From assembly GCA_001303705.1 (NCBI GenBank), contig LJUI01000046.1:1-40638 (forward strand): a DNA stretch of 40,638 nucleotides. Direction: 5' to 3'. Under the pieces are notes generated by a model. The model was given only the letters and a program-made list of their open reading frames with translations. It did not search any database and was not told the origin of the DNA. Both the position numbers and the translations under genes were made by a program. This stretch comes from a candidate division TA06 bacterium SM23_40 (lineage in GTDB: Bacteria > LJUI01 > SM1-40). Numbering within the stretch: position 1 is the first letter of the stretch; every line of letters starts with the position of its first letter. Of this stretch, positions 25,386 through 35,908 are shown in pieces.

Positions 25386-25488
25386 TCTCCTCCTGCCGTG
25401 GTGTCTTCGGGATGGTTCGAGCAGATGATCGGGTCCGGAGAGATATATCAGACGGTAATGAGTCATATGAGCGATGGGAGATCTTCCA

Positions 25489-26826
25489 ATGGACCATGAG
25501 ACATTCGCAGAACAGACCCTTCGCAGGCTGAAGAGCGCCGGGGCAGATAGTGCGGAGATCTTCATCGAGGAAAGTGTCAGTCTCGAGGCGGGCGTCCGGG
25601 AGGGAGAGATCGAGACGTTGCGGCAGTCGTCACCCATGGGATATGGCATCAGGGTATTCAGGGGCGGACGGATGGCGTTCGTCGACTCGACAGACTTCTC
25701 TCAGGCTGCCACGGATGACGTCATAGACAAGGCTATCGCGCTCGCCCGGGAGGCGGGCGAGGATCCGCACCACGGCCTGCCCGCAGGGCCGATCCGCCAG
25801 CCGATGCGGCGGATCTTCGATGCGGGCCTGGAGCGGGTCTCGCTGGAGGAGAAGGTCGAGCGGTGCCGCAGGGCCGAGCAGATCGGGCTCAAGTACGATC
25901 GGCTCATCAAGGCGTGCGACGGCGCATACTACTCGGAGACGCGGGGCCGCACAACAATAGCCAACACTCGCGGAGTACTGGCCAGCTACCAGAGGACAGA
26001 CTGTTCGGTCGGAATCGAACTCGTGGCTGAGCGAGGTCCTCACAAGCAGCCTGGCGGGTATGGCGCCGGTGTCCGATTCTACGGTGATCTGCCCCGAGCA
26101 GGGGAGATCGCCAGGGAGGCGGGATATCGTGCGGTTTCACAGCTGGCCGGAGAGCCGGTGCCGAGCCAGAAGGCCCCCGTCGTCTTCGACCGACGGGCCG
26201 GGGCGAGGCTCCTCCATGGCATCGGTTCGGCCCTGAACGGGCTGTCGGTCTATCAGGGAGCATCGTTCTTGGCGGGAAGGGTGGGTGAGCGGGTCGGGTC
26301 GGAGCTCGTCACGATCATGGACGATGGCACGATGCGGAAGCGAACCGGGACGACACCTGTCGACGGCGAAGGCGTGCCCACCTCCCGGAAGGTGCTCATC
26401 GATCGGGGGATCCTCAAGGGATACATGTACAACACGTACGCCGCCAACAGAGCGGGGACGAGGTCGACGGGCAACGCATCGCGCTGGTGGTATGGCGGGC
26501 TGCCCGGGATCGGGACCACCAATTTCTATCTGGAAAAGGGGACGACATCGCGCGATGAGGTGATCGGTGGCGTGAAGGAAGGGCTGTTCGTGCTCGGGAC
26601 GCTCGGATTCGGGGTCGACTCGGTGAGCGGCAGCTTCTCCACGGGGGCGAGCGGGCTCTGGATCAAGAACGGCAAACTGACCGATCCCGTCGGGCGGGTG
26701 ACCATCGCCTCGACCCTGGACGAGATGCTCATGGGTATCGATGCCGTGGGCGACGACCTCATCTGGCTCGGTTCGATGGCAACCCCCACCTACCGCATCA
26801 AGGAGATGACGATCAGCGGGGTGTAG
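25489..26826 (+). CDS. pmbA: TldE/PmbA family protein
   Basis: 'ADSAEIFIEESVSLEAGVREGEIETLRQSSPMGYGIRVFRGGRMAFVDSTDF', 'LIDRGILKGYMYNTYAANRAGTRSTGNA'; lacks HExxxH as expected for TldE. Confidence 0.9.
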   Translation: MDHETFAEQTLRRLKSAGADSAEIFIEESVSLEAGVREGEIETLRQSSPMGYGIRVFRGGRMAFVDSTDFSQAATDDVIDKAIALAREAGEDPHHGLPAGPIRQPMRRIFDAGLERVSLEEKVERCRRAEQIGLKYDRLIKACDGAYYSETRGRTTIANTRGVLASYQRTDCSVGIELVAERGPHKQPGGYGAGVRFYGDLPRAGEIAREAGYRAVSQLAGEPVPSQKAPVVFDRRAGARLLHGIGSALNGLSVYQGASFLAGRVGERVGSELVTIMDDGTMRKRTGTTPVDGEGVPTSRKVLIDRGILKGYMYNTYAANRAGTRSTGNASRWWYGGLPGIGTTNFYLEKGTTSRDEVIGGVKEGLFVLGTLGFGVDSVSGSFSTGASGLWIKNGKLTDPVGRVTIASTLDEMLMGIDAVGDDLIWLGSMATPTYRIKEMTISGV

Positions 26827-26936
26827 TAGCTCAGCGGGGTTTAGCAGCTCAACGGAGTTTGGCAGCTCAGCGGGGTCTAGGAGCTCAAGGGGGCTCAGCA
26901 GCTGAGCGGAGTTTGACAGTTCAACGGGGCCGGGTG
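26811..26936. repeat. Degenerate tandem array, 7 units of 18 bp (consensus GCTCAGCGGGGTTTAGCA)
   Basis: Unit starts at 26811, 26829, 26847, 26865, 26883, 26901, 26919; first unit includes the tldE stop codon. Confidence 0.85.
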
Positions 26937-27126: not shown

Positions 27127-27149
27127 TGAGGGCTTGCCACAGAAGAAGG

Positions 27150-27190
27150 AGCTGAGGCGGATCTGCGTGGTGCGTCCTCGCCTCAGCTCG
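27150..27190. repeat. Inverted repeat, perfect 11-bp arms
   Basis: GAGCTGAGGCG (27150-27160) / CGCCTCAGCTC (27180-27190). Confidence 0.7.
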
Positions 27191-27201
27191 TGTAGTTGAA
27201 T

Positions 27202-27273
27202 GGGGCCGTTGCTCAGGTGGCGGAGCACTCAGCTACCGAGGAGGTGGCGTACTCGGCAGCCTACCGGCCCCAT
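27202..27273 (+). other. tRNA-like structured element (not a recognisable functional tRNA)
   Basis: Closing 8-bp helix TGGGGCCG/CGGCCCCA, canonical-looking D arm GCTC-AGGTGGCG-GAGC; middle folds as GCTACC-gagga-GGTGGC; no standard anticodon or T arm. Confidence 0.4.
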
Positions 27274-27340
27274 AAGCTGTCTGATCAACTTGTAGTATAT
27301 AAGATAGAGTCGAGAGTGTCAAGTGTGAATCTGAACGAGT

Positions 27341-27530
27341 GCTGGTCACGGCCGGTGAAGGCCAGCGGCGGCCGGCAAAGACCAACAATGGTCAGCAAGG
27401 ACGAACAAAGGCCGGTGAAGGCAAGCGAGAGCCAGTCGAGGCCAACAGACGCCACCCAAAGTCAGGAATGGCCAGGAAAGACTGGCAGGAGCCGGCGACG
27501 GCCGACAAAGAGCGTGAGAGGCCAGCCGGG
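27341..27530. repeat. Degenerate tandem array, about 19 units of exactly 10 bp (consensus GCCRGCRAAG)
   Basis: Units such as gccggtgaag, gccggcaaag, gccaggaaag, gccgacaaag in strict 10-nt register. Confidence 0.85.
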
Positions 27531-27666
27531 GGACCTCCCGTGAGCGTTGATCTAGGTCTCTGCTCCAGGTTGATTCCAGCTGATCGATCCCGATGGGAGA
27601 TTCTCGCGTTGCCCGGCGCCAGAGAGGCGCGCACAGCGATAGCAGCCACGATTGGGAGAATGCCGC

Positions 27667-28980
27667 CTACCGATAGAAGGCGTGAGGGGGCCAGCCGGCC
27701 AGGACGAGGAGAACGGTGATGAGGGTGGTGAAGAGGACGGCCGGGATCAGGAGGCGGTACACACGGCCGAAGTCCGCGCCGAAGTAGCCCTTCGTCAAGA
27801 CGAGACAGAGGTGGACGGGGGATGCGATTACACCCATGAATCCGCCGGAATAGGCGAGCATGACGTATGTGAGGTTGATGCCGTTCGGCGCGAGGAGATG
27901 TACGAGTATCGGGAACGCGATACCGATGTAGGCCACAGTCAGTCCGGTAATGAGCCCGACGGCGAACGGAACGGCATAGATGACGATGAGAGGAGAAATC
28001 CCGATCGACACGAGGAACTCGGGGATCACGGTCACCGCTCCCGATGCCTCGATCATCGTCTTGAAGACCATCACTCCGAGGATGAGCAGGACGAGCTCCG
28101 GAGTGACGGAGCTGACGATGATGCGCCGCATATCGCGCCAGGGTATGCGCGTGATGGCGATCAACAGTATGAGTGCGCCGACTAGGGAAAGCGCGAGAGG
28201 CACACGAAAGCCGAGCGTGGCGACGATGACGAGCACAACGGGCCAGACGGCGACGAAGAGACTCTTCAGGTGTCGGGCAGACTTGTTCGAGAGCGGTGGC
28301 GCGGGTTGGTTTGCCTCACCGAGCGACGGTGAGGCCTCGCGCGCCACAGCGACGTTCGACGCGGGCGCCGGCGAGGATGCCGGCTCCGGCCTGGGGAGGG
28401 GCCGCAGATAGAAGAGGAGGCCGGCGAGAATAGCGGCGAGCGTGAGGGGGAACTGGGCGATGACGACGTTATTGAGCGGCACACTCAGTACGGCGACGGT
28501 CAGGACGATACCGGGATAGAGCGGGAAGAAGTACTCCCAGACGTGGCGGAACCAATAATTGATCAAGGTCTTCTGTTCCGGGTTGAGCGGGTACCGCGTC
28601 GAGACCTCCTCGACCATGGGAGCCGAGAGCATGGCTCCGCCGGGCATCGGGAGGAAGCCGACGAAAGCGGCAGCGGCCGCGGCGACGAGGCGCAGATCGC
28701 GGAACAGCCCTTCCATGGCCACGATGAGCCGTTTCAGGTTCTCGATGTGCTTGAGGACCGCGCCGAGGATCGTGATGAGGAGCACGGCGGCCAGGAGGTT
28801 GAGGGTGGCCGGGGCGATGGCGGCTGATATCCCTGTCCTCGCGATCAGGGGCGGTGACATCCGAAACAACAGTCCGAGAATGAGGGCGCCGCAGAGAAGA
28901 ACATAGCCGATCCGCCACTTCAGGCGGATGAGGACGATCATGACGGCGAAGACGGCACCTATCTTCAACAGCTCGATCAC
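27667..28980 (-). CDS. DUF401 family integral membrane protein
   Basis: 'MIELLKIGAVFAVMIVLIRLKWRIGYVLLCGALILGLLF', 'GFLPMPGGAMLSAPMVEEVS...INYWFRHVWEYFFPLYPGIVL', 'SPVHLCLVLTKGYFGADFGRVYRLLIP'. Confidence 0.85.
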   Translation of the reverse strand: MIELLKIGAVFAVMIVLIRLKWRIGYVLLCGALILGLLFRMSPPLIARTGISAAIAPATLNLLAAVLLITILGAVLKHIENLKRLIVAMEGLFRDLRLVAAAAAAFVGFLPMPGGAMLSAPMVEEVSTRYPLNPEQKTLINYWFRHVWEYFFPLYPGIVLTVAVLSVPLNNVVIAQFPLTLAAILAGLLFYLRPLPRPEPASSPAPASNVAVAREASPSLGEANQPAPPLSNKSARHLKSLFVAVWPVVLVIVATLGFRVPLALSLVGALILLIAITRIPWRDMRRIIVSSVTPELVLLILGVMVFKTMIEASGAVTVIPEFLVSIGISPLIVIYAVPFAVGLITGLTVAYIGIAFPILVHLLAPNGINLTYVMLAYSGGFMGVIASPVHLCLVLTKGYFGADFGRVYRLLIPAVLFTTLITVLLVLAGWPPHAFYR

Positions 28981-32798: not shown

Positions 32799-33051
32799 CG
32801 GTGCGGGCACAGGATAACGCCCGCACGCGACTACGTCTGCACCAGACCGTGTCCGTGTGAGATATTGTCCGCACCAGACAAAGCCCATCCGAGACCACGT
32901 CTGCACAAAACGATGTTCCTATGAGATTATGTCCGCACATTATGTGCGCGAGCGATAACGTTCGCACAAGAGCACGTTTGCAGAAGATCACGTCCGTACA
33001 ACAGAGCATCGGCACAGGATGACGTCCGCACAGGGCGACGTCCGAGAAGGA
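32799..33051. repeat. Degenerate tandem array, 16 units of 16 bp (one unit 13 bp), consensus YNACGTCCGCACAAGA
   Basis: Units e.g. taacgcccgcacgcga, ctacgtctgcaccaga, tattgtccgcaccaga, taacgttcgcacaaga, tgacgtccgcacaggg in register. Confidence 0.85.
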
Positions 33052-35599: not shown

Positions 35600-35908
35600 C
35601 CGGGAGCTCGTCGGCCGGGGACGCGTCTGTGCGGTAGCTCGCCGGCGACGCGTTCGTCCGGTGGCTTATGGGAGACACGTCCATCCGGTAGTTCGTCGGC
35701 GAGGCCTTCGTGCGGTAGCTTATCGGCGATACGTTCGTCCAGTAGCTTGTCGGCGACGCGTTCGTCCGGTAGTTGGCCGGCGACGCGTTCGTCCGGTAGC
35801 TGGCCGGCTACACGTTCGTCCGGTAGGTTGTCGGCGACGCGTCCAGCCGGTAGCTCGCCGGCGACGCGTTCGTCCGGTAGGTCGCCGGCGATACGTCGTT
35901 CCAGTAGG
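35600..35908. repeat. Degenerate tandem array, 10 full units of 27 bp plus partial flanking units (consensus CCGGTAGCTCGCCGGCGACGCGTTCGT)
   Basis: Unit starts at 35631, 35658, 35685, 35712, 35739, 35766, 35793, 35820, 35847, 35874. Confidence 0.9.

Follow-up and report, generated by a model that had tools for sequence, protein, structure and literature searches.

A degenerate decamer array between convergent genes of a candidate division TA06 bacterium is best read as one of many decayed minisatellites in its genome

The degenerate decamer array that lies between a TldE/PmbA-type protease gene and a DUF401 protein gene of candidate division TA06 bacterium SM23_40 is very probably an old, decayed minisatellite, whose 10-bp spacing needs no function of its own. 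We analysed it within a stretch of 40,638 bp (contig LJUI01000046.1; hereafter the window), and it is best read as one of a population of minisatellites that are born and decay throughout the genome, birth presumably being by slippage or unequal exchange. Specifically, replication slippage or unequal recombination would have multiplied a short intergenic sequence head to tail, giving about 19 decamers, and the units would then have diverged by point substitutions, mainly of the transition type that is observed, until their likeness to the consensus had fallen to about 70%. The period of 10 bp would be due to chance. Because arrays whose units are unrelated and whose periods range from 10 to 37 bp occur in many intergenic regions, the array-making process appears indifferent to helical spacing and would act on whatever sequence is present. 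The array was probably retained because the stretch between the convergent genes, on the upstream side of an sRNA-like promoter, is free space.

Table 1 The decamer array and the other features located in the window.
Feature	Position	Strand	Remarks
TldE/PmbA-type protease gene	25474..26826	+	450 aa; left neighbour; PF19289, E 1e-74
Second degenerate array	26813..26929	.	same intergenic region as the decamer array; 18-bp unit, 54-bp higher-order unit; begins in the last tldE codons
Structured RNA-like element	27134..27282	-	multibranch domain and long GAGCTGAGGCG/CGCCTCAGCTC hairpin; lineage-specific family
Sigma-70-like promoter	27294..27322	-	predicted; TTGACA-17-TATACT, 11/12 matches; lies between array and RNA element, directed away from the former
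Degenerate decamer array	27341..27530	.	19 units; consensus GCCRGCRAAG (+ strand); no indels
DUF401 protein gene	27667..28980	-	right neighbour, convergent; PF04165, E 1e-56
Sister array	32807..33044	.	16-bp unit
Sister array	35614..35907	.	27-bp unit, 81-bp higher-order unit

The decamers are head-to-tail units within the class of minisatellites of about 10–60 bp, and their periodicity is above chance. The identity of the array with itself at lags of 10, 20, 30, 40, 50 and 60 is 0.53, 0.52, 0.51, 0.50, 0.47 and 0.55, respectively, and the mean of the first three lags, 0.521, compares with 0.301 ± 0.020 in shuffled sequence (5000 shuffles, maximum 0.383); the maximum over all periods from 5 to 30 in 500 shuffles of the region is 0.387. 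Wraparound alignment runs ungapped over positions 27350–27526, covering 17.7 units at 71% consensus identity with 52 substitutions and no indels. The majority bases of the ten columns are G C C A/G G C A A A G, with majority counts from 10 to 16 of the 19 units. Together, the lag identities and the alignment confirm the 19 diverged decamers in strict register that a preliminary description of this DNA had reported, and the lag-10 autocorrelation (about 0.5 versus 0.30) is stronger than in shuffles, the opposite of what that description had named as grounds for refutation. Tandem Repeats Finder, which it had proposed as a check, misses the array even at a score of 30, since the likeness of the units to the consensus is no more than about 70%. 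The unit was found nowhere else in the genome, and a search of a plasmid collection gave no match. Additionally, the + strand folds somewhat better than its shuffles (z -2.5), while the - strand is unremarkable (z -1.25); the former value is not surprising for GGCC-containing repeats, and the array as a structured RNA was rejected.

The divergence among the units looks mutational, as in a minisatellite left to decay. Mismatches to the consensus are even across the ten columns (heterogeneity p 0.60), no core column is kept, and 42 of the 60 mismatches (70%) are transitions. As counted by column, about 39% of consensus A sites now carry G or C, and about 18% of consensus G/C sites carry A or T; the former change is about twice as frequent, as drift toward the genome base composition would give, and the rates imply an equilibrium of about 0.68 G+C, roughly the 0.61 of the window. 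This decay is read from the sequence of one genome. Pooled over the other arrays, 66 indel events accompany 1254 substitutions (0.053 per substitution), a rate at which about three would be expected among the 52–60 substitutions of the decamer array, which has none (P(0) about 0.05). The absence hints weakly that the decay was not purely neutral, in an array that had been picked for its strict register and in a set where several sister arrays also lack indels. Two further observations speak against the minisatellite reading: unit similarity is flat with distance, the identity being level from lag 10 to lag 120, so that no trace of stepwise growth is left, and the array stands directly upstream of a strong promoter-like site.

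The sister arrays place the decamer in its genomic setting. In the window and 60 further stretches of the same genome (915 kb of the 2.88 Mb of a fragmented MAG), an ungapped scan, which favours arrays without indels, together with a gene finder of our own making, yielded 29 intergenic degenerate arrays with an ungapped score of at least 0.50, each with its own unit. Their periods are 10, 14–19, 21–23, 25, 27, 32, 35 and 37 bp; the decamer is the shortest in this sample, and the window holds three of the others. The periods show no preference for 10.5 (Rayleigh p 0.95), and multiples of 3 (9/29) are not favoured, for which reason an origin of the arrays as remnants of coding repeats was rejected. 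Units of different arrays are no more alike than shuffled units, comparison of the flanks revealed nothing significant in common beyond neighbouring arrays and no carrier element, and the arrays are located between genes of every relative orientation. Sister arrays with unrelated units and periods in the same genome are what would be expected of a degenerate minisatellite.

Raising the score threshold to at least 0.55 leaves 20 non-coding arrays in the 915 kb, none in shuffled sequence of the same genome, and three in 1.0 Mb from other genomes drawn from many different families, all three with 7- or 12-bp periods. Tandem Repeats Finder shows a spectrum from two-copy near-identical repeats to long degenerate arrays, many of them with two- or threefold higher-order units, which is what slippage or unequal exchange would leave; the two-copy repeats and the higher-order arrays look like younger stages. 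Loss of mismatch repair as the cause of array formation was rejected, as MutS and MutL are present. Tandem arrays occupy 9 of 105 contig ends and 81 of 2000 interior segments, and the cleaner arrays may break short-read assembly. Other repeats were observed alongside: an interspersed intergenic repeat with the core CGTTGGTAGGTTC...GGTTAC forms direct-repeat pairs (L071:7373-7452, L077:14992-15079, L087:806-880 and L047:15525-15648), and a coding region at L035:11062-13227 (C185) has an in-frame 39-bp periodicity (GGCAACACGATC...) and appears by eye to encode a beta-helix-type repeat protein.

The neighbourhood of the array also contains a structured RNA element, which the promoter next to the array would transcribe. 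The family of this element, about 145 nt long, comprises five loci, namely the one in the window, C88:37357-37501 (+), C185:5492-5632 (+), C185:3192-3361 (+) and C73:1-110 (-), and a hairpin remnant occurs at C160. The multibranch domain shows some compensatory pairs and is followed by the long terminal hairpin, and a CACCUC-containing segment could pair with Shine-Dalgarno sequences. An Rfam search with the element gave no match at E ≤1, and a model of the family found only four marginal matches (27–30 bits) in 57 other genomes. Three copies have a sigma-70-like promoter of their own, those at C88 and C185 as judged by eye; in the latter copies the array is missing, and a tRNA-Glu gene, or sequence resembling one, lies upstream. 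Another conserved leader (GTAGGCGTTGAGTTCCCGAGATTTCTGC...GGCCTCGGGAGCGGTTTGGCACT), possibly a 5' leader RNA, follows a TTGACA-type promoter just past the RNA hairpin (L002 after 1600, L128 after 1553 in C160, and C185 after 5620) and precedes apparently secreted proteins, one of them with FG-GAP-like repeats by eye. As for the protein-coding neighbour on the left, the best TldE relatives are 34–38% identical, in compared genomes that share only the domain with the source.

This arrangement raises the alternative that a protein binds a series of weak sites in the array, which spans about -54 to -245 relative to the promoter, and thereby activates or silences the transcription of the structured RNA next to it. 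The array lies directly upstream of an 11/12 promoter that points away from it and has no indels in 17.7 units, and the promoter points away in seven of the eight arrays that have a promoter-like site (at least 10 matches, 150-bp flank). We nevertheless consider such a role unlikely. Promoter-like sites near arrays are not enriched (8 observed vs 6.5 expected), and intergenic layout by itself would tend to make them point away; moreover, the evenly decayed columns retain no core motif, the phase drifts most of a turn along the array, and a phased upstream element would be kept at homologous promoters, whereas the homologous promoter–RNA copies at C88 and C185 are without it. An upstream role of the array is possible but unsupported. 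It is very improbable that selection keeps the array in register as a helically tuned control element upstream of a lineage-specific small RNA, and that a general array-making process in this lineage seeds promoters with elements of many periods.

The period near the helical repeat and the flat identity across lags would also suit intrinsically curved DNA or a nucleoid-protein site selected for helical phasing; the preliminary description had likewise named phased A-rich ends on the same face of the helix, and its two proposed explanations were selection on the spacing and an old minisatellite. Its A-rich ends prove weak, since the array contains no run of at least four A or T and only five AAA, and the claim of a shared face fails over 190 bp, as a 10.0-bp period at 10.5 bp per turn rotates each unit by about 17 degrees and the array by about 309 degrees over 18 steps. 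In a wedge model with Bolshoy parameters, where an A-tract control bends as expected (0.46), the array (0.968) has a straighter predicted path than 99% of its dinucleotide shuffles (0.886 ± 0.062). The sister-array periods show no preference for multiples of 10.5 bp either, and we judge helical phasing a hardly credible explanation. The old minisatellite, upheld by sister arrays of other periods and by neutral-looking decay, is the part of the earlier proposal that survives; selection on spacing finds neither predicted curvature, A-tracts, helical preference among sister periods nor an array at the homologous sRNA promoters. A decapeptide repeat encoded in an open frame (27196–27543 or 27339–27719) is almost certainly not the origin of the pattern. 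Two forward frames are indeed open across the array and a 10-bp period gives a 10-aa repeat, so the earlier argument that a period other than a multiple of 3 excludes coding does not hold. The non-coding verdict stands on other grounds: identity at lag 30 and its multiples is not above that at other multiples of 10, substitutions fall evenly over codon positions (19/18/23) with no codon-phase bias, and the frames have no family match and are not called by the hexamer-based gene finder.

The decamer array is by itself ordinary. What the genome as a whole shows is modestly interesting: unrelated degenerate arrays number about 30 per 0.9 Mb in a compact genome (86% coding) with MutS and MutL, and the pieces of other genomes show no such density. 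This makes the lineage a candidate for the study of bacterial minisatellite birth and decay. The preliminary description knew of no array of this kind, but degenerate intergenic minisatellites are a known kind of DNA. The short tandemly repeated repetitive (STRR) sequences of cyanobacteria are heptanucleotide repeats, whose same units are reused genome-wide; here too short tandem arrays stand at many places, while each is built on a unit of its own. Phased A-tract curved DNA (PMC3940949) resembles the decamer array in a period near the helical repeat, and differs from it in that the array has no A-tracts, a period of 10.0 instead of about 10.5, and no predicted bend. In Burkholderia pseudomallei, the tandem arrays are VNTR loci with units mostly of 6–9 bp (PMC1853098). 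Compared with these, the present units are longer (10–37 bp), strongly decayed and not common to several loci, yet the two genomes are alike in having many arrays, mostly intergenic and some of them degenerate, for which slippage is the usual explanation.
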